Source: Rhodoglobus sp.
GTDB taxonomy: Bacteria > Actinomycetota > Actinomycetes > Actinomycetales > Microbacteriaceae
Direction of reading: 5' to 3'
DNA: 53,887 nt
NCBI GenBank assembly: GCA_025464445.1
Contig: JAODLY010000031.1
Span: 1-53,887 of the forward strand
The translations under genes were made by a program, and so were the position numbers. Of the stretch, positions 1,098 through 52,237 are shown piece by piece. How positions within the stretch are numbered: position 1 is the first letter of the stretch; each line of letters opens with the position of its first letter. The notes under the pieces were generated by a model. The model did no database searches and was not told where the DNA came from. It saw only the letters and a program-made list of their open reading frames with translations.

Positions 1098-1131
1098 GAG
1101 GCCTCCTGGCTCAACACTGTGGGACGAAGCA

Positions 1132-1204
1132 GGTGGCCCGGCCTCACGGCTGGGCCACCGGGGTGGTCGATCGGTGGGTCGACCGGGCGGCTTTCACCGC
1201 CCGG
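1132..1204 (-). terminator. Two stem-loops between rplO and secY (terminator or attenuator)
   Basis: Just after the rplO stop codon lies a perfect 8-bp stem, CCGGGCGG (1183-1190) with CCGCCCGG (1197-1204) around a 6-base loop. Further downstream GGTGGCCC (1132-1139) pairs perfectly with GGGCCACC (1152-1159). Neither has a U-tract, which is common in GC-rich actinobacteria. They could reduce read-through from the ribosomal operon into secY; termination itself is inference. Confidence 0.45.
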
Positions 1205-1210
1205 GACGAC

Positions 1211-1879
1211 TCACTTGACGGAACCGCCCGCCGCTACGATCTTCTGCTCGGCAGAGCCGGAGACCTTGTCGACTGCAACGTTCAGCTTAACCGCAATGTC
1301 GCCGGCCCCGAGAACCTTGACCTTCTCGTTCTTGCGCACTGCGCCCTTGGCGACGAGATCGGTGATGGTGACCTCTCCGCCCTTGGGGTAGAGCTCGGCG
1401 AGCTTCTCGAGGTTCACGACCTGGTACTCGACGCGGAACGGGTTCTTGAACCCGCGCAGCTTCGGCGAACGCATGACGAAACCGATGTTTCCGGCCTCGA
1501 AACCGGGGCGCACCGAGTAGCGTGCCTTCGTTCCCTTGGTGCCACGACCGGCGGTCTTGCCCTTCGAACCTTCACCGCGTCCCACGCGGGTCTTGTCCTT
1601 CTTGGCACCGGCCGCTGGGCGGAGGTGATGCATCTTGAGCACCTGCGGGCGCGACGGGACGTCGGCCTTCGGTGCCTTCTTCGCCGGTGCGGCCTTGGCC
1701 GCGGGTGCCTTGGCGGCAGCAGGAGCAACCTTGGGGGCAACCTCAGCCTTCGGGGCAGCCTTGGCTGCCGGGGCCTTGGCGGCCGCCGGCTTCTCGGTGG
1801 CCGCCTTGGGAGCGGCCGCCTTCGCAGGCGCTTTAGCGGCGGCAGCCTTCGGGGCGGCCGCCTTCTTCTCTTCAGCCAT
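1211..1879 (-). CDS. rplO: 50S ribosomal protein L15 with long Ala/Lys/Pro N-terminal extension
   Basis: L15 is a large-subunit protein that binds 23S rRNA late in assembly. The family core starts near residue 82 ([14 protein letters not shown]) and contains the basic glycine-rich segment [18 protein letters not shown]. At 222 residues it is about 75 longer than the usual 145-150, because residues 1-75 are almost entirely Ala, Lys and Pro in short repeats (AAPKA, KAPA). The ATG shares one base with the rpmD stop (TAATG), which supports this distant start. A start at an internal codon near the core cannot be excluded, but no better ribosome-binding site was seen there. Confidence 0.93.
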
Positions 1880-2064
1880 TAGTCAATCTCCTCGACCTTG
1901 ACAAGGTGAGCGACCGTGCGCACGTAGCCACGGTTCTGCGAGTTGTCCTCGCGCACAACCACGTCACCGATGCGGTGCAGCCCGAGGCTGCGCAGGGTAT
2001 CGCGCTGGTTCTGCTTCTCACTGATTTTGGACTTGATCTGGGTCACCTTCAGGCGCGCGGCCAT
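1879..2064 (-). CDS. rpmD: 50S ribosomal protein L30
   Basis: L30 is a small large-subunit protein. The 61-residue product is normal in length and shows the family signature [20 protein letters not shown] followed by [10 protein letters not shown]. It is tightly coupled on both sides: its ATG overlaps the rpsE stop as TGATG and its TAA overlaps the rplO start as TAATG. Order rpsE-rpmD-rplO is the standard spc order. Confidence 0.96.
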
Positions 2065-2786
2065 CAGACACCTGCCTTAGCTTCTGCCTCGACACGCAGC
2101 AGGCGAGCCGGCACGACGTGCTCGACGGGCAGGCCGCGGCGTGCGGCGACTGCCCGCGGCTCCTCGAGCTGCTTGAGGGCAGCGACTGTCGCGTGCACGA
2201 TGTTTATCGTGTTCGATGAGCCGAGCGACTTGCTCAGCACATCGTGGATTCCTGCGCACTCGAGCACCGCGCGCACGGGGCCGCCGGCGATAACACCGGT
2301 ACCGGCGGATGCCGGACGCAGCAGCACGACGCCGGCAGCGGCCTCGCCCTGCACGGGGTGCGGGATGGTCACTCCGACGCGGGGGACGCGGAAGAAGTTC
2401 TTCTTCGCCTCCTCGACGCCTTTGGAGATGGCCGTGGGCACTTCGCGAGCCTTGCCGTAGCCGACGCCGACCAGGCCGTTGCCGTCTCCGACGACCACGA
2501 GCGCGGTGAAGCTGAAGCGACGACCGCCCTTGACGACCTTGGAGACGCGGTTGATGGTCACGACGCGCTCGAGGAACTGGCTCTTCTCGGCGTCGCGGCT
2601 GCTACCACGGTCACGGTTGGGGTTGCGCTCACGACCGCCTCGGCGGGCCTCGCGGGGCTCGTTGGCCAGGTCGGTCGCCGGGGCGTCGTTGACGACCTCC
2701 GGTACCACCACGGCCTCGGCCGCTACGGCCTCGGTTGGCTCAACAGCCACGTCCTGCTCCTTGCTCGTGTTGCTTGTGTCACTCAC
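2064..2786 (-). CDS. rpsE: 30S ribosomal protein S5 with acidic and Arg/Gly-rich N-terminal extension
   Basis: S5 supports decoding accuracy and translocation in the small subunit. The double-stranded RNA-binding core begins near residue 72 ([18 protein letters not shown]) and continues through [18 protein letters not shown]. The first 70 residues are extra: about 45 acidic, Ala/Val/Glu-rich residues, then an Arg/Gly/Asn stretch ([18 protein letters not shown]). The start is a GTG that overlaps the rplR stop by four bases (GTGA), so translation is probably coupled. The loop linked to spectinomycin resistance (VSKVVKGG) looks wild type. Confidence 0.95.
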
Positions 2787-3154
2787 AGGTTCAAACCACC
2801 CTCGCGAGCTCCATCGGCGATAGCCGCGACGCGTCCTGCGTAGCGGCTTCCGCCACGATCGAATACGACGGCGTCGACGCCGGCCTTCTTGGCGCGCTCG
2901 GCAACGAGCTCGCCGACCTTGCGAGCCTTCGCGGTCTTGTCACCGTCGAACGTGCGCATGTCGGCCTCGAGGGTCGATGCGGACGCGAGGGTGTGGCCCT
3001 TGGAGTCATCCACGACCTGCACGAAGACGTGCCGGGCCGAGCGGGTGACGACAAGGCGCGGGCGCGCCTCGGTGCCGACGACCTTCTTGCGGAGGCGTGC
3101 GTGCCTGCGGCCCTTTGCGGCCGACTTGCTCTTACCCCTGGTTCCGAGAGCCAT
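2783..3154 (-). CDS. rplR: 50S ribosomal protein L18
   Basis: L18 binds 5S rRNA and carries it into the large subunit with L5. The 123-residue protein has the basic N-terminus ([19 protein letters not shown]), then [18 protein letters not shown] and the C-terminal [20 protein letters not shown] motif of the family. Length is normal. It sits between rplF and rpsE and overlaps the rpsE GTG start by four bases. Confidence 0.96.
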
Positions 3155-3156
3155 GT

Positions 3157-3693
3157 CTACTTACCACTCTTTCCGGCCTTGCGACGGACGACTTCGCCCG
3201 CGTAGCGCACACCCTTGCCCTTATAGGGCTCCGGCTTGCGCAACTTACGAATGTTGGCCGCGACTTCGCCGACGGCCTGCTTGTCGATCCCGTTCACGGT
3301 GACCTTGTTGTTGCCCTCAACGGTGAAGCTGATGCCCTTCGGCGGGTCGACGGTGATCGAATGCGAATAGCCGAGGGCGAACTCGATCGAGTCACCCTTC
3401 GCTGCTACGCGGTATCCGGTTCCGACGACCTCGAGGCCCTTGGTATACCCGTCAGTGACGCCGATGATCTGGTTGGCGATGAGGGTGCGGGTGAGACCGT
3501 GCAGCGAGCGGGATACACGCTCGTCGTCCGGGCGGGTGACAAGCACCTGCCCGTCTTCGAGGGCGACCTCGATCGGGTTCGCGACGACGAGCGACAGCTC
3601 GCCTCTCGGGCCCTTGACAGCGACGGCCTGGCCGTCGATCTTCACCTCGACGCCCGCAGGGACGTCAATGGGGAGTCTTCCGATACGTGACAT
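3157..3693 (-). CDS. rplF: 50S ribosomal protein L6
   Basis: L6 lies near the factor-binding site of the large subunit. The 178-residue product begins [19 protein letters not shown] and ends with the conserved C-terminal signature [20 protein letters not shown], both diagnostic. Length is that of the family and no insertion is seen. The rplF stop is two bases from the rplR ATG, and rpsH ends six bases upstream, consistent with one polycistronic message. Confidence 0.97.
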
Positions 3694-3699
3694 TGCCGG

Positions 3700-4098
3700 T
3701 TACCACACGTAGGCGGGGACTTCCCCACCCACGCCCTTCGACGAAGCCTCTTTGTCGGTCAGCAGACCGGAGGAAGTTGACAGGATGGCGACGCCGAGCC
3801 CACCGAGAACCTTGGGGATCTCTGTCGACTTCGCATACACGCGAAGGCCGGGCTTCGACACGCGCTTGATGCCCACGATTGAACGCTCGCGGTTCGGGCC
3901 GTACTTGAGGTCGATCGTGAGGGTCTGGCCCACGCGAGCGTCCTCCACCTTCCAGGCGGCGATGTAACCCTCGGTCTTGAGGATCTCCGCGAGGTGCGAC
4001 TTGAGTTTGCTGCTGGGCAGCGAAACCGTGTCGTGGTACGCCGAGTTGGCGTTGCGCAGTCTGGTCAGCAGGTCTGCGACCGGATCTGTCATTGTCAT
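3700..4098 (-). CDS. rpsH: 30S ribosomal protein S8
   Basis: S8 is a primary 16S rRNA-binding protein and in some bacteria the translational repressor of the spc operon. The 132-residue product begins [20 protein letters not shown] and ends with [20 protein letters not shown], matching the family. Two in-frame ATGs (4098 and 4092) are possible and neither has a strong ribosome-binding site; the first is used. Upstream is a 75-base gap where rpsN is normally found. Confidence 0.96.
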
Positions 4099-4123
4099 GA
4101 TGTAGTGCCTATCTCGTCTGGTT

Positions 4124-4148
4124 TCGGCATCCGTTACGCGAATGCCGA
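4124..4148. repeat. Short inverted repeat in the rplE-rpsH gap
   Basis: TCGGCAT (4124-4130) and ATGCCGA (4142-4148) form a 7-bp stem with an 11-base loop in the 75-base gap between rplE and rpsH. This is the usual site of rpsN, so the hairpin may be a scar or a processing/attenuation structure. The role is unknown. Confidence 0.4.
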
Positions 4149-4173
4149 CCTTGTCGATCGGTGATGCCTGGTG

Positions 4174-4788
4174 TTAGGAGTTTTCCGCTGCGCGGAACGG
4201 GAAGCCGAGCGCCTTGAGCAGCGCGCGACCCTCGTCGTCGGTGCGGGCGGTGGTCACGACTGTGATGTCGAACCCACGAACGCGGTCGATGCGGTCCTGG
4301 TCGATCTCGTGGAACATCGACTGCTCGGTGAGGCCGAACGTGTAGTTTCCGTTGCCGTCGAACTGCTTGTCCGACAGGCCACGGAAGTCGCGGATGCGGG
4401 GCAGGGCGAGCGAAACCAGCCGGTCGAGGAACTCCCAGGCCCTGTCGCCCCTGAGGGTGACGTGGGCGCCGATGGGCTGTCCTTCGCGCAGCTTGAACTG
4501 CGCGATCGACTTGCGGGCATTCGTGACCTGAGGCTTCTGGCCGGTGATCGCGGTGAGGTCCTTGACGGCCCCATCGATGATCTTGCCGTCGCGGGCAGCC
4601 TCGCCAACACCCGTGTTGACGACGACCTTGACGAGGCCGGGCACCTGGTGCACGTTCGTGAAGCCGAAGTCCTTCTTGAGCTGGGCAGCGATCTCGTTGC
4701 GATACTTCTGCTTGAGGCGAGGCTGGTATGCGCCAGCCGGCGCAGCCTTGGCTGCGCCCTTTTTCGCGGCAGTAGTGGTGTCAGTCAT
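4174..4788 (-). CDS. rplE: 50S ribosomal protein L5
   Basis: L5 binds 5S rRNA and forms part of the central protuberance. After about 25 Ala/Lys-rich residues the family core begins ([20 protein letters not shown]), followed by the conserved [12 protein letters not shown] and [17 protein letters not shown]. The 204-residue length is slightly above the usual 180-187 because of this N-terminus. The ATG shares one base with the rplX stop (TAATG). It is followed by a 75-base gap instead of rpsN. Confidence 0.96.
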
Positions 4789-5285
4789 TAGTTCGCATCC
4801 TTCTCGGCTGCAGCAGCGACGTCATCAGAAACTGCGGCATCCTTCTTGGCCTTCGGAGTGGCTTTCGCCGGCTTCTCGGCGGCCTGCTTGTCCGCGGCGG
4901 CAGCCTCTGCGGCGCGAGCCGCCTTCGACTTCTTGGTCTCGACGCGACGGGACTTCTTGAAGAAGCGCACGCGCGTGGTCTTGCCGCGGTCGTCTGTCTC
5001 GATCTTGAAGCCGACGCGAGCCGGCAGCTTGGTGTCGGGGTCGACGAGCGCGATGTTCGACACGTGGATCGGGGCCTCGACGGTCTCGATACCACCGGTT
5101 TTCGTGCCGCGCTGGGTCTGGCCGACGCGATTGTGCTTGGTGACGAAGTTGATCCCCTGCACGATCACGCGGTTCTTGTCGGCCTGCACGCCGATGACAC
5201 GACCCTGCTTGCCGCGGTCTCCACCGCGCTCAGGGGTCGGTCCGCTGATGACCTGTACCAGGTCGCCCTTGCGAATGTTTGCCAT
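4788..5285 (-). CDS. rplX: 50S ribosomal protein L24 with Ala/Lys-rich C-terminal tail
   Basis: L24 is an assembly initiator for the large subunit. The KOW-type core runs from [15 protein letters not shown] through [20 protein letters not shown] to about residue 113. Residues 115-165 form an extra tail of Ala, Lys and a few acidic residues, so the protein is about 60 residues longer than the usual 104. No frameshift is needed to explain it: the reading frame runs smoothly to the TAATG junction with rplE. Confidence 0.95.
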
Positions 5286-5288
5286 GGC

Positions 5289-5657
5289 TTACAACACCTC
5301 CGGTGCGAGCGAGATGATCTTCATGAACTTCTTGTCACGAAGCTCACGACCGACGGGTCCGAAGATGCGGGTACCGCGAGGGTCACCGTCTGCCTTCAGG
5401 ATCACCGCGGCGTTCTCGTCGAACTTGATGTACGAGCCGTCTGCACGACGGGTCTGCTTGATGACGCGAACGATGACGGCCTTGACCACATCGCCCTTCT
5501 TGACGTTGCCGCCCGGAATCGCGTCTTTGACTGTGGCGACGATGACGTCACCGAGGCCCGCGTAACGGCGGCCTGAGCCACCGAGCACACGGATCGTGAG
5601 GAGTTCCTTGGCGCCGGTGTTGTCGGCGACCTTGACTCGTGATTCCTGCTGAAGCAT
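5289..5657 (-). CDS. rplN: 50S ribosomal protein L14
   Basis: L14 forms an intersubunit bridge. The 122-residue protein is of standard length and shows [20 protein letters not shown] at the start and the family signature [15 protein letters not shown] in the middle. The end, [15 protein letters not shown], is also typical. It lies between rpsQ and rplX with only three intervening bases on each side, as expected in this operon. Confidence 0.97.
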
Positions 5658-5660
5658 GAG

Positions 5661-5960
5661 TTACTTCGCCTTTTCGAGGATCTCGACCAGGCGCCAGCGC
5701 TTGGATGCGCTGAGCGGACGGGTCTCGCTGATGAGGACGAGGTCACCGACGCCGGCACCATTGGCCTCGTCGTGCACCTTGACCTTGGACGTGCGGCGGA
5801 TGACCTTGCCGTACAGGGGGTGCTTCACGCGGTCCTCGACCTCGACGACGATGGTCTTGTCCATCTTGTCGCTGGTCACGAGACCACGACGGGTCTTGCG
5901 GTATCCGCGGGCGAGCTCGGCAGTCGTGGCCGCCGGGGTTGCTGAATCGACTTTCGCCAT
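5661..5960 (-). CDS. rpsQ: 30S ribosomal protein S17
   Basis: S17 is a primary 16S rRNA-binding protein of the OB-fold type. The core shows [20 protein letters not shown] and the signature [20 protein letters not shown]. The 99-residue length is a little above the E. coli protein because of a short N-terminal segment ([20 protein letters not shown]). Two bases separate it from the rpmC stop. Confidence 0.96.
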
Positions 5961-5962
5961 GA

Positions 5963-6325
5963 CTATGCCTCCTTCGTTTCTGTAGCGGCGTCGGTCGCGG
6001 CATCAGCCACGTCATCCGCCTTCGCTGTGTCTTTCTCAGGCTTGGCCGCCTTGGGCGCAGCCGCCTTTTTGGCAGCCTTCGCAGGTGCCTCGACGACGGC
6101 CGGGGTCGCCCGCAGGCCAAGCTCGCGCTCACGGATGACCGTGTAGATGCGGGCGATGTCGCGCTTGACAGCGCGAATGCGTCCATGACTTTCGAGCTGG
6201 CCGGTCGCGGACTGGAAACGAAGGTTGAAGAGTTCTTCCTTCGCCTTCTTCAGTTCATCGACGAGACGCTCGTCTTCAAATGTGTCGAGCTCGACCGGTG
6301 CGAGCTCCTTGGATCCGATCGCCAT
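5963..6325 (-). CDS. rpmC: 50S ribosomal protein L29 with Ala/Lys/Asp-rich C-terminal tail
   Basis: L29 lies at the polypeptide exit tunnel and contacts trigger factor and SRP. The family core is residues 1-72, including [20 protein letters not shown] and [20 protein letters not shown]. The remaining 48 residues are an Ala/Lys then Ala/Asp/Thr-rich tail, almost doubling the usual 60-70 residue length. The start at 6325 is chosen because the family begins with this Met and it shares a base with the rplP stop (TAATG); the reading frame continues open upstream but that part is a shadow of rplP. Confidence 0.94.
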
Positions 6326-6744
6326 TATGCGTCGCCCTCCTCGCGCTTGATGATGCGTGCCTTGAGCGGCAGCTTGTGAATTGCACGGGTCAGCGCCTCG
6401 CGGGCAACCTTCTCGTCGACGCCGGCGAGCTCGAAGAGCACGCGACCCGGCTTGATGTTCGCGATCCACCACTCCGGCGAACCCTTACCGGAACCCATGC
6501 GGGTTTCGGCCGGCTTCTTCGTCAGCGGGCGGTCGGGGTAGACGTTGATCCACACCTTTCCACCACGCTTGATGTGACGGGTCATCGCGATACGCGCCGC
6601 CTCGATCTGGCGGTTCGTGACATACGCGGGCGTGAGCGCCTGGATGCCGTACTCGCCGAACGAGATGACCGTGCCACCGGTGGCCTGGCCGCTACGGCCC
6701 GGGTGATGCTGCTTACGGTGCTTGACCTTGCGTGGAATCAACAT
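6325..6744 (-). CDS. rplP: 50S ribosomal protein L16
   Basis: L16 binds near the A-site of the peptidyl transferase centre and the 5S RNP. The 139-residue protein shows [20 protein letters not shown] at the start and the family signatures [20 protein letters not shown] and [19 protein letters not shown]. Length is standard. Its TAA overlaps the rpmC start and its ATG is two bases from the rpsC stop. Confidence 0.97.
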
Positions 6745-6746
6745 GG

Positions 6747-7541
6747 TTACGCCTCAACTCCTGCTGCGACCGGTGCGTCTGCCTTGGGGGCGGCGCTGCG
6801 CGGTGCGCGGCTGTCGCGACGGTCTCCACCGTCACGGCGGTCGTCACGGCGCTCCGGGCGGGTCGACTTCTGGTTTGCCTGCTCGCGGGCGAGCTCCTTG
6901 TTCGTGATGTCGCCCTTGTAGATCCACACCTTCACACCGATGCGGCCGAACGTCGTCTTGGCCTCGTAGAAGCCGTAGTCGATGTTGGCGCGCAGGGTGT
7001 GCAGCGGAACGCGACCCTCGCGATAGAACTCGGAGCGGCTCATCTCCGCGCCGCCGAGGCGGCCGGAGACCTGGATGCGAACACCCTTGACCGACGGAAC
7101 ACGCTGGGCGCCTTGCAGTCCCTTGCGCATCGCGCGGCGGAACGCCACACGAGCAGAGAGCTGCTCCGCGATGCCCTGCGCGACAAGCTGTGCCTCCGCC
7201 TCCGGGTTCTTCACCTCGAGGATGTTGAGCTGGATCTGCTTGCCCGAGAGCTTCTCGAGGTCGGCGCGAATACGCTCGGCCTCAGCACCGCGACGACCGA
7301 TGACGATGCCGGGGCGGGCGGTGTGGATGTCGACGCGGACCCGGTCGCGGGTGCGCTCGATCTCGATGCGTGCAACGCCGGCGCGGTCAAGCGACGTGCG
7401 CAGCAGGCTGCGGATCTTGATGTCCTCGGCGACGTAGTCGCTGTAACGCTGCCCGGCCTTGGTGCTGTCTGAGAACCAGCGCGACACATGGTCGGTGGTG
7501 ATTCCGAGACGGAAACCGTAGGGGTTTACCTTCTGTCCCAT
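6747..7541 (-). CDS. rpsC: 30S ribosomal protein S3 with Arg/Asp-rich C-terminal tail
   Basis: S3 shapes the mRNA entry channel. It begins [18 protein letters not shown], has a KH domain with the GxxG-like loop in [14 protein letters not shown] (around residue 82), and the conserved [20 protein letters not shown]. From about residue 217 a low-complexity tail rich in Arg and Asp ([20 protein letters not shown]), ending in Ala, extends the protein to 264 residues against about 233 in E. coli. The ATG shares one base with the rplV TAA. Confidence 0.96.
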
Positions 7542-7951
7542 TACTTCTTCCCTGCCTTTGCGGCCGTTGACTTGCCGCTGGCCTTCTGTACGTCTTCCTC
7601 GGCCGGCGTGGCCAGGACGATCGTGATGTGGCTCGTGCGCTTGAGGATCTGGAATGCGCGACCCTGTGCACGCGGCTGGAACCGCTTCAGGGTCGTTCCC
7701 TCATCCACGAATGCGGCCGTGACGAACAGGTCCTGTTCGTCGAGGTAGCTGTTCTCGGCGTCGGCCTTGACCCGCGCGTTGGCGATTGCGGACGCGACGA
7801 GCTTGTAGACGGGCTCGCTCGCGGCCTGGGGCGCGAACTTCAGGATCGCGAGTGCTTCCATTGCCTGCTTGCCGCGGATCAGGTTAACGACACGGCGGGC
7901 CTTGGTGGCGGTGACGCGGATGTGCTTCACGCGTGCGATCGACTCAACCAT
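7541..7951 (-). CDS. rplV: 50S ribosomal protein L22
   Basis: L22 lines the polypeptide exit tunnel. The core shows [20 protein letters not shown] and the tunnel hairpin region [20 protein letters not shown]. At 136 residues it is about 25 longer than the E. coli protein, from a short C-terminal segment ([19 protein letters not shown]). No insertion or duplication of the macrolide-resistance type is apparent in the hairpin, although this was judged by eye. Confidence 0.96.
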
Positions 7952-7975
7952 TTCTCTCCTCCTACCGTCACCGCG

Positions 7976-8257
7976 TTAGCGGCGACGACCCTTCTTGTCG
8001 TCCTTCTCGTGCCCACGGAAGGTGCGGGTGGGCGAGAACTCTCCGAGCTTGTGCCCAACCATGGTCTCGGTGACGAACACCGGGATGTGCTTGCGACCGT
8101 CGTGCACCGCGATGGTGTGCCCCAGCATCGCCGGGATGATCATCGAGCGGCGCGACCAGGTCTTGATCACGTTCTTGTTGTTGGCTTCATTCGCCTTGAC
8201 GACCTTCTGCAGCAGGTGGTCGTCGACGAAGGGGCCCTTCTTCAGACTGCGTGGCAT
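7976..8257 (-). CDS. rpsS: 30S ribosomal protein S19
   Basis: S19 sits in the head of the small subunit near the decoding site and bridges to the large subunit with S13. The 93-residue product has [19 protein letters not shown] at the start and the signature [20 protein letters not shown], with standard length. It precedes rplV by 24 bases and follows rplB by 11. Confidence 0.97.
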
Positions 8258-8268
8258 CTTCTTGACTC

Positions 8269-9108
8269 CTACTTGCGCTTCTTGCCGACATTGCGGCGGC
8301 GAACGATGAGCTGGTCACTGGGAAGGTTGCGCTTGCGCGTTCGGCCTTCCTTCTGGCCCCAGGGGGTAACCGGGTGACGTCCACCTGACGTCTTGCCCTC
8401 ACCACCACCGTGGGGGTGGTCGACCGGGTTCATGGCGACACCGCGGACTGTCGGGCGCACGCCCTTCCAGCGCATGCGGCCGGCCTTGCCCCAGTTGATG
8501 TTCGACTGCTCGGCGTTGCCGACCTCGCCGATGGTGGCGCGGCAGCGTACATCCACGTTCCGGATCTCACCGGAGGGCAGGCGCAGCTGGGCGTATGGGC
8601 CGTCCTTGGCCACGAGTCGAACCGAAGCACCCGCGGAGCGGGCCATCTTGGCGCCACCACCCGGACGCAGCTCGATCATGTGGATGACCGTACCGACAGG
8701 GATATTGCGCAGCGGCAGGTTGTTGCCCGGCTTGATGTCCGCGGCCGGACCCGACTCGACGATGTCGCCCTGGTTGAGCTTGTTCGGGGCGATGATGTAG
8801 CGCTTCGAGCCATCGACGAAGTGCAGCAGCGCAATGCGCGCCGTGCGGTTCGGGTCGTACTCGATCTCGGCGACGCGGGCGTTGACTCCGTCTTTGTCGT
8901 TGCGCTTGAAATCGATCACGCGGTACTGGCGCTTGTGGCCACCACCGATGTGGCGCGTCGTGATGCGGCCGGCGTTGTTACGCCCTCCGGTCTTCGGCAG
9001 CGGGCGCAGCAGGGACTTCTCCGGGGTCGAACGGGTGATCTCGGCGAAATCTGCCACCGAGGAACCGCGACGACCTGGGGTCGTGGGCTTGTACTTGCGA
9101 ATAGCCAT
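8269..9108 (-). CDS. rplB: 50S ribosomal protein L2
   Basis: L2 is required for subunit joining and peptidyl transferase activity. The 279-residue protein shows [40 protein letters not shown] and the highly conserved C-terminal [20 protein letters not shown], which includes the histidine thought to approach the catalytic centre. Length is normal for bacteria. It lies between rplW and rpsS in the usual S10 operon order. Confidence 0.98.
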
Positions 9109-9127
9109 TGTTATCTCTCCTTAGTCC

Positions 9128-9430
9128 CTAGCCGACAGCCGTGAAGATGTCGATGGAACCGGACTTGAGCGTGACGATCGCGCGCTTCGTGTCCTTGCGC
9201 TTGCCGAGTCCGAACTTGGTGCGGCGGGTCTTGCCGGTGCGGTTCAGGGTGTTGACCGAGTCGACCTTCACGTCGAAGATCTTCTCGATCGCGAGCTTGA
9301 TCTCCGTCTTGTTAGCACGGGGGTCAACCACGAACGTGTACTTGCCGTCATCGATGAGGCTGTAGCTCTTCTCCGAGACGACGGGCGCGATGATGATGTC
9401 GCGCGGATCCTTGTACGTGAGGGTGGTCAT
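9128..9430 (-). CDS. rplW: 50S ribosomal protein L23
   Basis: L23 stands at the tunnel exit and docks SRP and trigger factor. The 100-residue protein shows [20 protein letters not shown] and the signature [20 protein letters not shown]. Length is normal. Its ATG overlaps the rplD stop by four bases (ATGA), indicating coupled translation. Confidence 0.97.
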
Positions 9431-10128
9431 GCGCTGACCTCTTCCTTGCTCGGCGTGTCAGAAGACTTCTTGTCAGAGGAGACTGCTGTGCTCTCCTGCT
9501 TCGTGTTCCAGGTGACGAACTCGTCGAAGGCGCCCTTGGTGAAGACGATGTCGTCGCTCACCAGTACGTCGTAGGCGTTCAGCTGGTCGAACGGCAGCAC
9601 GTGCACTGTCGAGAGGTTGCGCACGCTCTTGTAGCTGGTCTCGTCGTCGCGCTGCAGAACGATGAGCACGTTCTTCGAAGGCGCGATGTCGAGGAGCAGG
9701 GCCGCGATCGCTTTCGTCGACGGCAGGTTGCCGACCGAGAGGGAGTCGATCACGTGGAGACGCTCGCCGCGGGCGCGGTCGGAGAGTGCACCTCGCAGTG
9801 CCGCCGCGATCATCTTCTTGGGGGTGCGCTGCGAGTAGTCACGCGGGTGCGGACCGTGCACGATGCCACCGCCCTTCATCTGGGGAGCGCGGATCGATCC
9901 CTGGCGGGCGCGGCCGGTTCCCTTCTGCTTGAAGGGCTTGCGGCCGGCACCGGACACCTCGCCGCGACGCAGGGTGTTGTGCGTTCCCTGGCGGGCGGCG
10001 GCGCGCTGGGCGACGACCACCTGGTGGATGAGCGGGACGTTGGTCTGCACGTCGAACACCTCGGCGGGAAGGTCGACCTGGCCGACCTTCTTGCCTTTGG
10101 CATCGGTGACGTCGATGGAGGTAGCCAT
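9427..10128 (-). CDS. rplD: 50S ribosomal protein L4
   Basis: L4 reaches into the exit tunnel and in E. coli also represses the S10 operon. The product has the conserved loop region [20 protein letters not shown] and [16 protein letters not shown]. It is 233 residues long, about 30 above E. coli, with a Ser/Lys-rich C-terminus ([20 protein letters not shown]). Whether it acts as a repressor here cannot be judged from the leader sequence. Confidence 0.96.
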
Positions 10129-10133
10129 GTGAA

Positions 10134-10784
10134 CTACGCCCCCTTCACTGCGTTGCGGACGAAAACGATACGGCCACGAGCACCGGGCACGGCGCCCTTG
10201 ATCAGGACGATGCCCTTCTCGAGGTCGACCGAGTGGACGATGAGGTTCAGCACTGTGACGCGGTCGCCACCCATACGACCCGCCATGCGCATGCCCTTGA
10301 AGACACGGCTGGGGGTCGAGGATGCACCGATCGAGCCGGGCTTGCGGTGGTTGCGGTGCGAACCGTGGCTGGAGGAGACACCCTTGAAGTTGTGGCGCTT
10401 CATGACACCGGCGAATCCCTTGCCTTTGCTGGTGCCCATGACGTCCACCTTCTTGCCCGCCTCGAACATGTCGACGGTGAGCTCCTGGCCGACGCTGTAC
10501 CCGGACGTGTCGTCCGTGCGCAGTTCGGTGAGGTGGCGGCGCGGCGTGACGCCGGCCTTGTCGAAGTGGCCGGTGAGTGGCTTGGTGACCTTGCGCGGGT
10601 CGATCTGGCCGTAGGCGATCTGCACGGCGGTGTAGCCGTCGATCTCCTGCGTGCGCAGCTGCGTCACGACGTTCGGCGTGATCTCGACAACGGTCACGGG
10701 CACGAGCTTGTTGTTCGCATCCCAGACCTGCGTCATGCCGAGCTTCTTGCCCAGCAGACCCTTGATCGTCTTGGTGTTAGACAT
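10134..10784 (-). CDS. rplC: 50S ribosomal protein L3
   Basis: L3 is an assembly initiator whose extension reaches the peptidyl transferase centre. The 216-residue protein shows [20 protein letters not shown] at the start and the signature [20 protein letters not shown]. Length is standard for bacteria. It lies five bases from rplD and 37 bases downstream of rpsJ. Confidence 0.97.
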
Positions 10785-10821
10785 TGTGGTTTCCTATTCG
10801 GCTCTCGAGGCTGCTAGAGGG

Positions 10822-11130
10822 CTAGAGCTTGATCTCGATGTTGACGTCGGCCGGCAGGTCGAGACGCATGAGCGAGTCGACGGCCTTGGGCGTCGGGTCG
10901 ATGATGTCGATGAGCCGCTTGTGGGTGCGCTTCTCGAAGTGCTCGCGGCTGTCCTTGTACTTGTGGGGAGAGCGAATCACGGCGATCACGTTCTTCTCGG
11001 TCGGAAGCGGCACGGGGCCGACAACCGTTGCACCCGCGCGGGTGACAGTGTCGACGATCTTGCGTGCCGAAGAGTCGATGACCTCGTGGTCGTACGACTT
11101 AAGTCGAATGCGGATCTTCTGTCCCGCCAT
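10822..11130 (-). CDS. rpsJ: 30S ribosomal protein S10
   Basis: S10 is in the small-subunit head and also serves as the NusE transcription antitermination factor. The 102-residue protein begins [20 protein letters not shown] and contains the signature [20 protein letters not shown]. The start at 11130 is chosen because it matches the family exactly; the frame stays open upstream, but those residues are not ribosomal. It is the first gene of the S10-spc block. Confidence 0.97.
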
Positions 11131-11631
11131 GGCTGACTCTCTCTCTTTGGTACTTCTGGACTGCTGCGTTTCCCGTGCCACGTGGTTCGGCCCGGGACGC
11201 CGGCATGCTTCAGCACTTCTGCTTTCGCACCACTGTTTATCTGTCAATTGCTTGCTGTGTTCATCGACTCCGCGCGCAGCGAGGCGGCGCTCGGCTAGCC
11301 GGGCAAACCACACCCGGAACGAGCAGGGAGTCGATTGAGCTTTTGGTTCTGCTTCCCGCGGCCTAATCTCTTGCTCTCGGAGCCGGACTATGCACTGCCT
11401 GGAAGTGATTCACGCGCCGTGGCACGGAAGTGTTGAACTAGACGAGTTTGCCACATGCGCGCATTTGCTGCAACCCGGGCGTGTCGCCGGTGCTCCCAGC
11501 TAACGCACATTGTTCCCATATCGAACGCAATGCCCCGGTCCGTATGGTCAGACGGCTGGTAACGGACGCTTTCCGTGAACACAATGGAAGGTATCCCGAA
11601 GCGTTGAACTGAGCGCGGAAAGGAATTCGCC
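11131..11631. other. Divergent intergenic region between rpsJ and the MurE-like gene
   Basis: About 500 bases hold no convincing gene. They must contain the promoter of the S10 operon (minus strand) and of the Mur ligase gene (plus strand). On the minus strand a perfect TTGACA box is present (11247-11242), but no good -10 hexamer follows at 16-18 bases, so the promoter was not assigned. The region between rpsJ and this box would be a leader of about 90 bases. Nothing resembling a tRNA or a repeat was seen. Confidence 0.6.
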
Positions 11632-13239
11632 TTGACTGATCAGATGCCGCGGGCGCTACGCCCACAGGGGACTCCCCCGAAGACCCTCGACCAGTTCGCC
11701 CGCCGGTTCGGGTTCACCGGCCCAGCCACGGATGCGGACGTGGCCGTGCACGGTGTGACCCTCAGCACCGGAGACATCCGGCAAGGCGACCTGTTCGTCG
11801 GTGCGGCCGGTAACCGCCAGCATGGCGCTGTGTTCGCGGCGAAGGCGCGCTCAGGGGGTGCCGTCGCGGTTCTCACCGACAAGGCCGGTGCGCGATTGGC
11901 CCAACCGAGCGGATTGCCTGTGCTCGTTGCCGATGACCCGCGCAGCACGCTCGGCCAGCTGTCGGCATGGCTGTACGGCACGGAATCGCGGGCCCCGCGG
12001 CTCTTCGGCGTGACGGGGACGAACGGCAAGACCTCGACAGTGCACCTCCTCGAGGCGATCCTCGTGCAACTGGGAGTGCGCGCCGGGCTGAGTTCGACCG
12101 CCGAACGCCACGTGGCGGGCACGTCGATCGTGAGCGGGCTCACGACGCCGGAGGCGACCGAGTTGCACGGGCTCCTGGCCCGAATGGTCGAGGAGCAGGT
12201 CGAAGCAGCGGCCATCGAGGTGAGCGCCCAGGGCCTCACCAAAGGTCGGGTTGAGGGTATCGACTTCGACGTTGCCGGCTTCACGAACCTCAGCCACGAT
12301 CACCTTGACGACTACGGCGACATGCGCAACTACCTGCTGGCCAAAGCCACCCTCTTCCAGCCCGGTCGGGCCCGTTCGGCAGTCGTGTCCCTCGACAGCG
12401 GCTGGGGCACCGAGATCCACCGCCTGGCCGGGGTGCCCGTGACGACGATCTCCTCGCGGCCGGATGTAGCCGCTGACTGGCACGTGGAGATCACCGCGGC
12501 GGAACCGCGTGGTGTCGCCTTCACGCTGAACTCGGCGGGCGGGGAGACCCTTTCCACCCGCCTTCCGGTCATCGGCGGCCACATGGCAGCGAACGCCGGA
12601 CTCGCGATCGCGATGCTTGTCGAGGGTGGCTACGAATTGTCACGGATTGCGACAGCGCTCGAAGAGGGAATCGACGTGTACATCCCCGGCAGAAGCGAGC
12701 GGATCTCGGGCCCGAGCGGGCCTGCGGTATTCGTGGACTTCGGTCACAGCCCGGACGCATTCGCGAATACTCTCGATGCCGTGCGGCAGGTCACGGAAGG
12801 CAAAGTCATCATGGTGTTCGGCGCTGACGGCGACCGCGATGCGACGAAGCGGTCCGCGATGGCCGAAGCTGCGGTGCTCGGAAGTGACGTGCTCATCGTC
12901 ACGGATCATCATCCGCGCTTCGAGGATCCCACGAGCATCCGGGCGGTTCTCATCGAGGCGGCGCTCGAGGCCGACCCCAATCACGAAACGATCGAGGTAC
13001 CCAACCCGAAGCTCGCGATCCGCGCCGCGGTACGGCTCGCCGCGGAGGGCGACTCGATTCTCTGGGCCGGCCCCGGGCACCAGGACTATCGGGACATCGA
13101 GGGCGTGCACGTTCCCTACTCGGCCCGGTACGAGGCCCGCAGTGCGCTGCAGGAGGCCGGCTGGTATCCTGGCGCCGAAACCGACCTAAGGAGTGACCTT
13201 CGGGCGCAGAATCACGCGGTGCACGAGGCTCACGGCTAA
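11632..13239 (+). CDS. MurE-like Mur ligase paralogue (ATP-dependent amide-bond ligase)
   Basis: The 535-residue protein has all three Mur ligase domains: an N-terminal MurE/F-like domain, a central ATPase domain with the P-loop GTNGKTS (residues 129-135), TTPEATE (171-177), EVSAQGL and TNLSHDHLDDYGDM with the following AK pair where the carbamylated lysine lies, and a C-terminal ligase domain (VDFGHSPDAF, GADGDRDATKR). The usual MurE motif DNPR, which recognises the side chain of the incoming diamino acid, is replaced by DHHPR (425-429), so the substrate may differ from canonical MurE. The start is a TTG preceded by GGAAAGGA seven bases away. It stands alone on the plus strand, away from the dcw cluster, so it is probably a second copy. 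Confidence 0.85.
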   Translation: MTDQMPRALRPQGTPPKTLDQFARRFGFTGPATDADVAVHGVTLSTGDIRQGDLFVGAAGNRQHGAVFAAKARSGGAVAVLTDKAGARLAQPSGLPVLVADDPRSTLGQLSAWLYGTESRAPRLFGVTGTNGKTSTVHLLEAILVQLGVRAGLSSTAERHVAGTSIVSGLTTPEATELHGLLARMVEEQVEAAAIEVSAQGLTKGRVEGIDFDVAGFTNLSHDHLDDYGDMRNYLLAKATLFQPGRARSAVVSLDSGWGTEIHRLAGVPVTTISSRPDVAADWHVEITAAEPRGVAFTLNSAGGETLSTRLPVIGGHMAANAGLAIAMLVEGGYELSRIATALEEGIDVYIPGRSERISGPSGPAVFVDFGHSPDAFANTLDAVRQVTEGKVIMVFGADGDRDATKRSAMAEAAVLGSDVLIVTDHHPRFEDPTSIRAVLIEAALEADPNHETIEVPNPKLAIRAAVRLAAEGDSILWAGPGHQDYRDIEGVHVPYSARYEARSALQEAGWYPGAETDLRSDLRAQNHAVHEAHG

Positions 13240-30081: not shown

Positions 30082-31749
30082 TCACGCCACCACTCGCAGT
30101 ACTTCTTCGATCGACGTGAGGCCCAGTCGGGCCTTCTCCCACCCGTCGACGCGCAGCGTCGACATCCCCTGGGCCACGGCGACCTGTGTGATCTCGAGGC
30201 TCGATGCTCGCGAAACACTCAGACGTTCGATCTCCTCTGTCACCGGCATGATCTCGTGCAACGCGATGCGCCCGCGATAGCCGGTGTTCGAGCAGTTTGA
30301 GCACCCGACAGGGTTGTACAGCGTCGGCGGCGCCACCGACGGGTCGTACCCCATCCTCAGGTTCACCAGGTCTTCGGGTTTCGGCTCGTAGCCGGCCTTG
30401 CACCTGTCACACAACCGGCGGGCCAGGCGCTGGGCCATGACCGAATCGAGCGCGGATCCCACGAGGAACGGCTCGATGTCCATCTCGATGAGACGGGTGA
30501 TGGCGCTGGGCGCGTCGTTCGTGTGAAGCGTGGAGAGCACGAGGTGGCCCGTGAGCGAGGCTTCGATGGCGATCTGGGCGGTCTCGTGGTCGCGGATCTC
30601 GCCGAGCAGCACCACGTCCGGGTCGGATCGCAGGATCGAGCGCAGGGCGCTGGCGAAAGTGAGGCCGGCTTTCGGGTTCACCTGCACCTGGTTGATGCCG
30701 GGCATCCTGTACTCCACGGGGTCTTCGACTGTGATGACGTTGATCTCGGGGCGCGCCACTGCCTTCAGCGTCGTATAGAGCGTCGTCGACTTGCCGGACC
30801 CGGTAGGGCCGGTGACCAGGATCATGCCGTTGGGCTTGGTGTAAGACTCCTTGAACACCACCGCGTTGCGACCGAGAAGGCCGAGTTCCTCGATATTCAT
30901 CGCGGTGTTGGTGTTGTCGAGGATTCGCATGACGACCTTCTCGCCCCACACAGTAGGCAGGGTCGCGACGCGAAGATCGATCTGGCGCTCGCCATGACGC
31001 ACCGACATGCGGCCGTCCTGCGGCCGGCGGCGCTCGGCGATGTCGATGTCCGACATGATTTTCAGCCGGGAGATCACGCCGTTCTGGATGTTCTTGGGCG
31101 CGCGCTGCATCACATGAAGCACGCCGTCGATGCGGTAGCGCACCATGAGCTCGAATTCGCCGGGCTCGATGTGGATGTCCGAGGCATGATCCTGGATGCC
31201 CTGGCTGATGAGCAGGTTGACGAATCGTACGACGGGGGCATCGTCGTCGGATGCCTCGGCCACCTGCGACGCTGACACATCGAGGGCGGCGGCCTCATCG
31301 ACGATTGCCGTGGTGAGATCGCTCAGTTCCCCGTCGGAGCGCACGAAGCGGGCGAGGGCCGCTCGCAGGTCGGCATGCTCTGCGAGCACGGGCCGGACCA
31401 TGAGTTGCACGCTGGCGCGCACATCGTCGAGTGCGATCACGTCGCCGGGGTCTGCCATGGCAACGAGTAGCCTGTTGCCCTCGATGGCGATGGGAAGTAC
31501 TTCATGCCGTCGCAACAAGGCGACCGGGACGAGTTCGACAGCCGCTCGATCGACGGGATAGTCGGCGAGTTCGACGAACGGGATGCCGAGCTGCGCCGCG
31601 CGCGCCGAAGCTACCTGCGTGTCGGTCACCCGGCCCTCTGAGGTGAGTTCGCTGATGAGGAACTCGTCGCTCGCGGTGGCGCCAAGGGAGTCCAGGCTCT
31701 CGATGGGCATGAGGCCACGCAAAACAAGAATCTCGGCAAGTGAGATCAC
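30082..31749 (-). CDS. pilB: Type IV pilus extension ATPase PilB
   Basis: PilB drives pilus polymerisation. The 555-residue protein has an N-terminal MshEN/T2SSE-type domain (residues 40-130), then GPTGSGKST (314-322), TVEDPVEYR, Walker B VVLLGEIRDHET and HLVLSTLHTNDAP, and the four zinc-binding cysteines (C447, C450, C483, C486) in CDRCKAGY and CSNCSNTGYRGR that mark PilB rather than PilT. The start is a GTG at 31749 with AAGGAG six bases upstream. It opens the pilus locus, 140 bases after csrA. Confidence 0.95.
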   Translation of the reverse strand: MISLAEILVLRGLMPIESLDSLGATASDEFLISELTSEGRVTDTQVASARAAQLGIPFVELADYPVDRAAVELVPVALLRRHEVLPIAIEGNRLLVAMADPGDVIALDDVRASVQLMVRPVLAEHADLRAALARFVRSDGELSDLTTAIVDEAAALDVSASQVAEASDDDAPVVRFVNLLISQGIQDHASDIHIEPGEFELMVRYRIDGVLHVMQRAPKNIQNGVISRLKIMSDIDIAERRRPQDGRMSVRHGERQIDLRVATLPTVWGEKVVMRILDNTNTAMNIEELGLLGRNAVVFKESYTKPNGMILVTGPTGSGKSTTLYTTLKAVARPEINVITVEDPVEYRMPGINQVQVNPKAGLTFASALRSILRSDPDVVLLGEIRDHETAQIAIEASLTGHLVLSTLHTNDAPSAITRLIEMDIEPFLVGSALDSVMAQRLARRLCDRCKAGYEPKPEDLVNLRMGYDPSVAPPTLYNPVGCSNCSNTGYRGRIALHEIMPVTEEIERLSVSRASSLEITQVAVAQGMSTLRVDGWEKARLGLTSIEEVLRVVA

Positions 31750-31775
31750 GGTGGCTCCTTCCCCCTCGTTACTGG

Positions 31776-31788
31776 CGCGATCATCGCG
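31776..31788. promoter_or_regulatory. 13-base palindrome upstream of pilB
   Basis: CGCGATcATCGCG is a perfect palindrome around a central base, 27 bases before the pilB GTG, in the 140-base gap between csrA and pilB. Symmetry of this kind suits a dimeric repressor or activator; the protein and function are unknown. No clear -35/-10 pair was found in the gap. Confidence 0.35.
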
Positions 31789-31889
31789 AACGCGACGACG
31801 CACTCCTGCCCCTGGCTTGAACGCTAACCCGGCAGCGGGTGGCGGCACAGTCCCGCAATAGAGTGCCCCGCGATCAGGGGACAGCCGAT

Positions 31890-32156
31890 TCAGGCTGGCG
31901 GGAGCTGCTCGTCTTCGGCGTGGTGTACGCGCCCCGCAAGCAGGCCGGCGAGCGCAGCGCCATCTTCAGCGCCAGCCCGGGATGCCTCGATATTGGCCTC
32001 GGTGACAGCCTGCATGACCTCGACCCGGTGGATGACGACCCCCTTCGGGGCGTCGATTCCGACGCGGATGCTGTCGCCCCTGGCGTCGAGGATGGTGATG
32101 ACGATGTCGTCCCCGATGAGGATCTGTTCTCCGCGCTTGCGGGTCAGGACGAGCAT
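31890..32156 (-). CDS. csrA: Carbon storage / translational regulator CsrA
   Basis: CsrA is a dimeric RNA-binding protein that represses or stabilises messages by binding GGA in hairpin loops. The first 60 residues match the family: MLVLTRKRGEQILIGDDIVI, RVGIDAPKGVVIHRVEV with the critical arginine in HR. The C-terminal 25 residues (after EASRAG) are an extension with AEDGAALAGLLAGRVHHAED. It is the last gene of the flagellar locus, nine bases after the FlhF-like gene. Two GGA-loop hairpins in the flgB leader are plausible targets. Confidence 0.94.
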   Translation of the reverse strand: MLVLTRKRGEQILIGDDIVITILDARGDSIRVGIDAPKGVVIHRVEVMQAVTEANIEASRAGAEDGAALAGLLAGRVHHAEDEQLPPA

Positions 32157-42131: not shown

Positions 42132-42174
42132 GCCATCTGGCGTACCCCATTCGGGGCTTTTCTCTGTACCCCGA

Positions 42175-51050: not shown

Positions 51051-51442
51051 CAGCTCCTGCCGATCTGCAGGGCCGCCTCATATGTCGACTTCGCGCGATC
51101 CACGACTGCCGCGTTCGCCTCGTAGCCGCGCTGGGCCATTATCAACTGGCCCATCTGGGATGCGAGATCGATGTCCGGATATCGCACGTAACCCTCGGCG
51201 TCGGCGAGCGGATGTGTCGGCTCGTACACGAGGCGACCCTCGGCGGGGCTGAACGCACCGCCCGTCAGGTAGACGCCAGACGTGCCCTGTCCCTCATGGG
51301 CGATGACGTACCTCGCCTGGAATGCGGCCTCACTTGTGGCGTGCACGGTGTTGACGTTGGCGATGTTGTCGGAGATGGCGTCGAGCCACTTGCGGTGCAC
51401 GGTGAGTGCCGTACCGGCGATGGCGATGGCATCGGTGCTCAT
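51050..51442 (-). CDS. flgC: Flagellar rod protein FlgC
   Basis: FlgC is a proximal rod subunit. The 130-residue protein begins with AGTALTVHRKWLDAISDNIA followed by NVNT, and ends with GQLIMAQRGYEANAAVVDRA, the two halves of the rod signature. Length is normal. It overlaps flgB and fliE by one base at each end. Confidence 0.95.
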   Translation of the reverse strand: MSTDAIAIAGTALTVHRKWLDAISDNIANVNTVHATSEAAFQARYVIAHEGQGTSGVYLTGGAFSPAEGRLVYEPTHPLADAEGYVRYPDIDLASQMGQLIMAQRGYEANAAVVDRAKSTYEAALQIGRS

Positions 51443-51792
51443 CAGTTGCCTCCCAGAGCCGAGCGAACGAGGGAGAACTGCGAGCTCGTCGCGTTCGCCG
51501 CGAACTGGAACCGCAGCACGGTGTCGATGTTCGAGAGCGTCTCGGTGTCGAGGTTGACGTTGTTGCCGTCGAGGCGCGTGGGGTCGAGCGAGACCTTGGT
51601 GGTGGGGGCGACGTGGCCGTTGCCCTCTGCGACCGACTTCGCGAGGGCATCCTCGAACGAGACGCGCTGCGCCTGGTAGCCGGGCGTGTTCACGTTGGCG
51701 ACGTTGTTCGCGATCGCGCGCTGGCGCGCGGCAAGACCGTCAAGAGCACTGGAGAGTGCGTTGAAGGTGACCGAATCGAACACGGCATCCAT
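51442..51792 (-). CDS. flgB: Flagellar rod protein FlgB
   Basis: FlgB is a proximal rod subunit. The 116-residue protein has ALSSALDGLAARQRAIANNV and NVNTPGYQAQRVSFEDAL, the family signature. It is the first gene of the long block that runs to flgE. The ATG at 51792 has no strong ribosome-binding site: GGG directly abuts it and two GGA triplets flank the start. The leader upstream holds the sigma-28-type promoter and two GGA-loop hairpins. Confidence 0.95.
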   Translation of the reverse strand: MDAVFDSVTFNALSSALDGLAARQRAIANNVANVNTPGYQAQRVSFEDALAKSVAEGNGHVAPTTKVSLDPTRLDGNNVNLDTETLSNIDTVLRFQFAANATSSQFSLVRSALGGN

Positions 51793-51813
51793 CCCATGGT
51801 TATAGGAAAAGAC

Positions 51814-51828
51814 GGCCTATCCGTGGCC
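51814..51828 (-). promoter_or_regulatory. GGA-loop hairpin 2 in the flgB leader (candidate CsrA site)
   Basis: On the minus strand GGCC-ACGGATA-GGCC forms a 4-bp stem with the loop ACGGATA. It lies 22 bases before the flgB ATG and 24 bases downstream of the identical loop of hairpin 1. Presentation of ANGGA in a hairpin loop is the known CsrA-binding arrangement. Confidence 0.55.
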
Positions 51829-51837
51829 TGGCTGGTT

Positions 51838-51852
51838 GAGCTATCCGTGCTC
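51838..51852 (-). promoter_or_regulatory. GGA-loop hairpin 1 in the flgB leader (candidate CsrA site)
   Basis: On the minus strand GAGC-ACGGATA-GCTC forms a 4-bp stem with the same loop as hairpin 2 but a different stem sequence, so base pairing is kept while the stem differs. It begins within a few bases of the predicted transcription start. The two GGA triplets are 24 bases apart, a spacing a CsrA dimer can bridge. Confidence 0.55.
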
Positions 51853-51860
51853 TGTTGTAC

Positions 51861-51887
51861 CTATCGGCGGTTTCGTCACCCGCGTTA
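51861..51887 (-). promoter_or_regulatory. FliA/WhiG-type (sigma-28) promoter of the flgB operon
   Basis: On the minus strand TAAC (51887-51884), a 15-base spacer and GCCGATAG (51868-51861) match the TAAA-N15-GCCGATAA class in 3 of 4 and 7 of 8 positions. Transcription should start near 51854, giving a 62-base leader that contains both GGA-loop hairpins. Confidence 0.8.
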
Positions 51888-51919
51888 GGAGTTCTGGCAA
51901 AATCGCTTGGGCCTGAGGT

Positions 51920-52237
51920 TTAACCTTCGACGTCGAGATAGGCGGCCTGGTGCCCGCGCGCGGGCTCCGCCCCCTTCACCGCGGCGAGGTGCTCGCCGGT
52001 CCTGCGGCGGGTCTCGTCGAGGGCCTCGATCGCGATGCGCTGCTGCTCGATGAGCTCGCGCACGGCGTGGGCGTACTCGTCGGGGAGGGGCCCGACGATC
52101 GTGGGGGGTGACCAGTCAGCTGATGCTATGCGGCCGCCATCCTCGAGCACCTCCCCCGATTTCAGGCGGGCTAGATCTGCATCGAGCTCGCCGAGGATGA
52201 GGCGCCAGGAGGCGTTGATCGCCTCGCGATCAGGCAA
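51920..52237 (-). CDS. Small helical protein of unknown function between fliS and flgB (possible FliT-like chaperone)
   Basis: The 105-residue product begins (TTG start) inside the end of fliS, overlapping by eight bases. It is helical and charged: WRLILGELDADLARLKSGEV, then a Pro-containing linker (SPPTIVGPLPDEY) and AVRELIEQQRIAIEALDETR. No family was recognised. Place (right after fliD-fliS), size and helical content recall the FliT export chaperone of FliD, but no diagnostic motif was seen. The TTG start is chosen because it is the only start in the frame near the open end. Confidence 0.6.
   Translation of the reverse strand: MPDREAINASWRLILGELDADLARLKSGEVLEDGGRIASADWSPPTIVGPLPDEYAHAVRELIEQQRIAIEALDETRRRTGEHLAAVKGAEPARGHQAAYLDVEG

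Follow-up and report, generated by a model that had tools for sequence, protein, structure and literature searches.

Conserved twin GGA-loop hairpins in flgB leaders suggest a CsrA docking site at the 5' end of the rod-operon mRNA in many actinobacteria

The flgB leader studied here carries two closely spaced hairpins that are real and conserved. By their sequence pattern they look like a docking site for the RNA-binding protein CsrA, which suggests a switch helping to order flagellum assembly in many actinobacteria. The leader lies in a 53,887-base stretch of DNA that was analyzed in full (hereafter, the window).

An earlier sequence-only reading had placed both hairpins in the flgB leader, with their GGA triplets 24 nt apart. 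Both are indeed found there on the minus strand, at that spacing: hairpin 1, GAGC-ACGGATA-GCTC, at 51838..51852, and hairpin 2, GGCC-ACGGATA-GGCC, at 51814..51828, on the evidence of the window sequence, of solo folding and of the relatives. Folded on their own, the two adopt the structures as drawn (−3.4 kcal/mol for hairpin 1, −5.5 kcal/mol for hairpin 2), and both form in a 48-nt piece of the leader. The whole window holds 10 hairpins with an ANGGA loop of 6-7 nt on a perfect 4-bp stem, compared with a shuffle mean of 4.6. The flgB-leader pair is the only pair of such hairpins no more than 40 nt apart, and no such pair arose in 60 shuffles. An RNA model derived from the relatives gave two matches in the assembly at E ≤ 0.01, both of them flgB leaders.

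The Rfam 15 covariance models, including TwoAYGGAY, gave no match up to E 10 within window positions 51700-52000, and none at the leaders of 12 other loci (11 of them flgB) up to E 0.5. TwoAYGGAY is an RNA motif of two hairpins with AYGGAY loops, and the window loops (ACGGAU) fit its name. On the other hand, it is listed for the human gut, γ-proteobacteria and Clostridiales, and not as cis-regulatory (PMC2864571).

To follow the pair across relatives, three sets were used. Set A comprises 83 flgB loci, namely the best 80 of 436 confirmed together with the window, L007 and L008 (L004-L006 duplicate L019-L021). Set B comprises the remaining 77 flgB-positive genomes out of the 248 belonging to the same order, and set C 27 phylum-level loci, out of 49 flgB-positive genomes outside sets A and B. 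A twin was scored when two hairpins, each with a stem of at least 4 and a loop of 4-8 containing GGA, had their GGAs 17-34 nt apart. By this rule, twin hairpins precede flgB in 83 of 83 set-A loci (shuffle mean 2.1) and in 67 of 77 set-B genomes (shuffle mean 3.4). In set C, 4 of 27 pass, against 1.3 by shuffle, and are convincing only in L189 and L190. The GGA spacing is 21-28 nt throughout set A and 19-28 nt in the 67 set-B leaders. Both loops read ANGGA in every set-A leader, with C, G or T at the N position, and the CsrA-type recognition pattern that had been noted in the window is therefore borne out in its relatives. Among the ten set-B leaders that fail the rule, those of G235 and G044 are imperfect twins by eye and eight have none; the latter belong to seven genomes of family f15 and to G027, and all eight genomes keep csrA.

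The proposal that selection acts on both hairpins and loops is supported; in distant families, the stems differ yet pair. As to the covariation expected over relatives, pairing is clear, but covariation is only modest. Of the pair cells in the set-A leaders (77 distinct sequences), 98.5% are paired and only one is compensatory; set-A stems are conserved as sequence. Owing to this near-zero covariation in the closest relatives, distant families were needed. Alignment A4 was built from 62 sequences, those of the window and of 61 set-B leaders. Of the other 16 among the 77, 8 have a rule-defined twin but match the model weakly or in part, and 8 have no twin. A further alignment, A3, contained numerous chance matches and did not enter the counts. 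In A4, 96.1% of pair cells pair, compared with 27-50% (maximum 49.9%) when partners are slid. Double-changed cells number 8, column shuffles giving 0.7 ± 0.8 (0 of 500), but they fall in only two pairs, a number reached by 53 of 500 shuffles. Moreover, sliding by +1 yields 11 double-changed cells against the native 8, and sliding by +2 raises the covariation score from the native 0.076 to 0.083. The share of paired cells is the one measure that clearly exceeds the slid control, and the covariation measures are weak; RNAalifold on this mixed alignment recovered hairpin 1 only. A better argument than covariation is the recurrence of the rule-defined pair in families with different stems, which read GAGC/GCTC, GGGCA/TGCCC, GGTGC/GCACC or GGCGC/GCGCC in hairpin 1 and GGCC/GGCC or GCGCC/GGCGC in hairpin 2. 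The loop-closing C-G pair is near-invariant, in agreement with the semi-specific recognition of the stem top described for RsmE (PMC4005645).

Upstream of the pair, a sigma28-type promoter is predicted from the sequence at 51862..51888 on the minus strand (CTAAC as −35, a 15-nt spacer and GCCGATA as −10). It was typed against the sigma28 consensus, and flgB transcription presumably starts about 2-3 nt before hairpin 1. The predicted start lies upstream of position 51838 and of both hairpins, in line with the sequence-only reading. In 81 of 83 set-A leaders, a scripted search places the −10 CGA 19-23 nt upstream of the first GGA; in the two exceptions, L040 and L098, the script picked a second, nearer CGA. 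The same distance is 19-22 nt in 63 of the 64 set-B leaders scored, 3 of the 67 having no CGA. The start codon follows the second GGA at a distance of 32-46 nt in set A and of up to about 98 nt in set B, where the minimum of 9 nt reflects a mis-assigned hairpin in L119 (the L128 pair is also mis-assigned). The hairpin pair appears to track the predicted 5' end and not the start codon.

The start codon of flgB is probably GTG 51783 and not ATG 51792, the earlier ORF start. It was moved, on the alignment of relatives, because the codon aligned with V4 is GTG, ATG or TTG in 81 of 83 set-A relatives, which places flgB at 51442..51783 on the minus strand. In the window sequence, a GGA 4 nt before this GTG (51788..51790, minus strand) is a probable minimal ribosome-binding site. 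The statement that flgB has no ordinary ribosome-binding site consequently needs correction, as a weak one is probably present. The extra GGAs near the start, to which significance had been attached, have little meaning: a GGA occurs no more than 18 nt from the start in 59 of 83 flgB genes and in 69 of 81 copies of the neighboring flgC. A third CsrA site at the start-codon GGA was dropped as a general feature after this flgC control, though the ribosome-binding site may have some involvement, given the 59 flgB leaders with a nearby GGA.

Gene annotation and an assembly search found a single copy of csrA in the assembly (31893..32156, minus strand). It is the last gene of the flagellar run, as the sequence-only reading had it, with FlhA before it and a pilus-type ATPase after it. 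The gene directly following (30085-31848, minus strand) encodes a type II/IV secretion (pilus) ATPase with an MshEN domain. When aligned with RsmE (2jpp), the window CsrA retains L4 and R44, which we take to be RNA-contact residues. Among the 248 genomes of the order, flgB is present in 78, CsrA in 75 and both in 74. The four genomes with flgB only are highly fragmented (at least 570 contigs each), and CsrA occurs in 1 of the 170 flgB-negative genomes. FliW was found in 76 of the 78 flagellated genomes and in neither of the two non-flagellated genomes searched. FlgM was detected in 0 of 80 genomes, with positive controls from E. coli, B. subtilis and T. maritima.

The twin hairpins probably bind CsrA. 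A(N)GGAX hexaloops are a known pattern, and the hcnA loop bound by RsmE reads ACGGAU (PMC4005645). Together they would make up a high-affinity site for CsrA at the very 5' terminus of a flgB-operon mRNA whose synthesis depends on sigma28. The spacing of the two loops matches the two binding pockets of a CsrA dimer, so that a single dimer could hold both: a bridging range of 10-63 nt is given for the sites of a dimer (PMC7652899), and the spacing is 24 nt in the window and 21-28 nt in all 83 set-A leaders. As the position of the pair follows the 5' end and not the ribosome-binding site, our best reading, which we favor by a modest degree, is that a CsrA dimer acts as a clamp on the rod-operon mRNA at that end. 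The bound dimer would keep the early operon on, through mRNA protection, an open start region or both. This positive sign, argued from geometry and physiology only, is put forward tentatively, with somewhat less than even confidence. That the flgB operon is early (rod, ring, export) is suggested by gene order.

The same CsrA would repress flagellin via a leader that combines a hairpin with the ribosome-binding site, and FliW would tie control of both the rod operon and flagellin to hook completion. In the B. subtilis circuit, CsrA is free before hook completion and FliW-bound afterwards (PMC7652899). A CsrA that is positive on the rod operon and repressive on flagellin would give the right assembly order. 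Since FlgM was found in none of the 80 genomes, the element would offer a way to set the order of flagellar genes that act early or late under a common sigma factor. It also provides a sharp, testable prediction across several families, namely that CsrA acts on the rod operon too. Against this reading stand the seven genomes of one family that keep csrA without a detectable twin pair, the weak covariation of the stems, and folds with coding sequence (see below), which disfavor the hairpins.

A parallel is offered by the Escherichia coli flhDC leader: CsrA binds this early flagellar transcript at two sites close to its 5' end and protects it from there, although flhDC encodes a master regulator (PMC7652899). 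In the flgB leaders, a comparable 5'-end position may be reflected in the fixed 19-23 nt between −10 and first GGA, both the −10 and the transcription start being predicted. With respect to actinobacteria, one genome paper reports csrA in the flagellar island, finds FlgM to be missing and points to a possible site for CsrA on the flagellin mRNA (PMC2587704). Beyond this paper we found little in print on CsrA in the group, and among titles and abstract openings no published account of CsrA acting on flgB there.

The sequence-only reading had proposed that CsrA blocks flgB initiation as on hag, and this part is not supported by the position of the pair or by comparison with the flagellin leaders. 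The flagellin leaders (L216-L251) were surveyed in 34 regions with 30 flagellin starts, two non-flagellin pattern matches having been removed. A perfect-stem GGA hairpin, with stems varied but pairing, lies 38-49 nt before the start in 24 of 30 leaders, and ANGGA covers the ribosome-binding site in 28 of 30. As judged from these motifs, the flagellin leaders of the group are hag-like in layout, and they share with Bacillus subtilis hag the circuit of CsrA and FliW. The flgB leaders, in contrast, have no regular ANGGA at the ribosome-binding site: it occurs no more than 18 nt from the start in 16 of 83 flgB genes, and in 1 of 81 flgC genes. Because the two layouts differ, the hag mechanism is not carried over to flgB.

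Repression of flgB translation, with the hairpins recruiting CsrA to the GGA of the ribosome-binding site, is for these reasons an unlikely alternative. It would make use of the CsrA-type loops in both hairpins and of the GGA near the start in 59 of 83 leaders, and recruitment of CsrA by upstream high-affinity sites to a weak site at the ribosome-binding site has been described (PMC4005645). However, that GGA is no commoner in flgB than in flgC, ANGGA at this position is far from the frequency seen in flagellin leaders (though higher than in flgC), the distance between hairpins and start is not kept, and the two loops would already fill both pockets of one dimer.

It is likewise doubtful that the flgB leader is mainly a CsrA sink, an early transcript that would titrate CsrA off flagellin mRNA by analogy with Campylobacter jejuni flaA, whose leader does so for other targets. 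The flaA leader, that of a sigma28-dependent gene in a species with FliW, carries two ANGGA stem-loops separated by 21 nt and acts as a CsrA titrator (PMC4894983); the flgB pair is similarly spaced and clear of the ribosome-binding site. A sink would nevertheless leave the fixed promoter distance unexplained. In flaA, the second loop covers the ribosome-binding site and the gene encodes flagellin, whereas in the flgB leader both loops are upstream of that site, anchored to the 5' end, and belong to a rod operon.

Alternative folds point to another reading. When coding sequence is taken into the fold (103 nt in all), hairpin 2 is kept and hairpin 1 is absent from the minimum-energy structure. 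The stretch CCGUGUUC around the start codon (51778..51785, minus strand) is complementary to the hairpin-1 5' arm GAGCACGG (51852-51845), a possible alternative pairing indicated by the minimum-energy fold and by complementarity in relatives. Over the 83 set-A leaders, the mean probability is 0.89 for hairpin 1 and 0.91 for hairpin 2 when the 5' part is folded alone. These values fall to 0.36 and 0.12, respectively, with 39 nt of coding sequence added, and in folds with about 40 nt of coding both hairpins exceed 0.5 in 0 of 83 leaders. Between the hairpin-1 segment GAGCAN and the start hexamer, 5 or 6 of 6 positions pair in 79 of 83 leaders, and leaders with an altered hairpin-1 arm do not keep this complementarity. 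With the hairpins locked, the start codon is predicted to be freed in 46 of 83 leaders and the reverse in 17 of 83 (L091 being mis-placed).

Codons 3-5 of flgB show a synonymous bias toward GAA (43 of 44, vs. 21% elsewhere), GAT (32 of 35, vs. 13%), TCC (57 of 82, vs. 32%) and GTG (60 of 82, vs. 41%). Within this first part of flgB (window 51769-51783), the third position of codon 3 is A or T in 93% of the 83 genes, compared with 11% in the flgC body and with 1-25% at each of flgC codons 2-13. AUCCGUG is the complement of the loop CACGGAU. The probability of hairpin 2 is 0.12-0.13 with native codons and 0.24-0.27 with synonymous recodings, being lower in 66-67 of 83 leaders by statistics that ignore kinship; for hairpin 1 no clear native-codon effect was seen (51 of 83, p 0.19). 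An antisense sigma28 promoter inside flgB, considered as a cause of the codon bias, was dropped on inspection by eye.

The start complementarity, the bias at codons 3-5 and the recoding effect on hairpin 2 suggest a CsrA-operated, co-transcriptional start-codon switch, in which the GAGCACGGAU arm and loop have two alternatives, the CsrA hairpins or base pairing to the start region of flgB. In the absence of CsrA, the coding start would displace the hairpins as it emerges and hide the start codon; with CsrA, the bound nascent hairpins would be trapped and the start codon opened. If true, CsrA would turn the rod operon on directly and flagellin off, giving the assembly order without FlgM. We keep this as a low-odds reading because the complementarity is lost with arm changes and because codons 4-5 of the window flgB are TCG GTC, unlike TCC GTG. 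In addition, the GAT bias is beyond explanation by this pairing.

Least probable of all is that the inverted repeats serve, without CsrA, as a DNA operator or as plain 5' stabilizing hairpins: the near-invariant stem sequence in the main clade, the weak covariation by slid control and the fixed distance from the promoter would suit this, but distant families have different yet pairing stems on which GGA loops persist, the loop N position varies, the two stems differ from each other, and semi-specific recognition of the stem top by RsmE can explain the conserved closing pairs (PMC4005645).

Beside the preferred reading of a CsrA clamp at the 5' end, several minor observations concern the locus and its relatives. 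Of the f15 members without twin hairpins (L159, L161, L165-L169), 6 of 7 have two FliW genes, and the four tested members that keep the twins have one each; twin-hairpin absence and the second FliW are probably one evolutionary event. Contig C52 of the assembly (1-12735; L218) carries a second flgB, 80% identical and with a twin-hairpin leader of its own, as well as the only FliW match of the assembly and a FliA-like gene. It overlaps the window in gene content and, at 2.58% contamination, may represent a strain mixture, not a second locus. A FliA/WhiG-like sigma gene, scoring below the curated cut-off, lies near flgB and flgK on this contig and in four genomes of the same genus (G007, G016, G020 and G024). 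Two more sigma28-type promoter matches, at window positions 42132 and 40153 on the minus strand of the flagellar locus, are without twin hairpins, and the mRNA from the flgK-side promoter in relatives is apparently nearly leaderless. Finally, in the phylum-level loci L198, L202, L207 and L212 (also L196 and L214), a strong hairpin such as GGAGGAGGC...GCCTCCTCC, seen by eye and followed by a T-rich stretch just before flgB, is a candidate attenuator.
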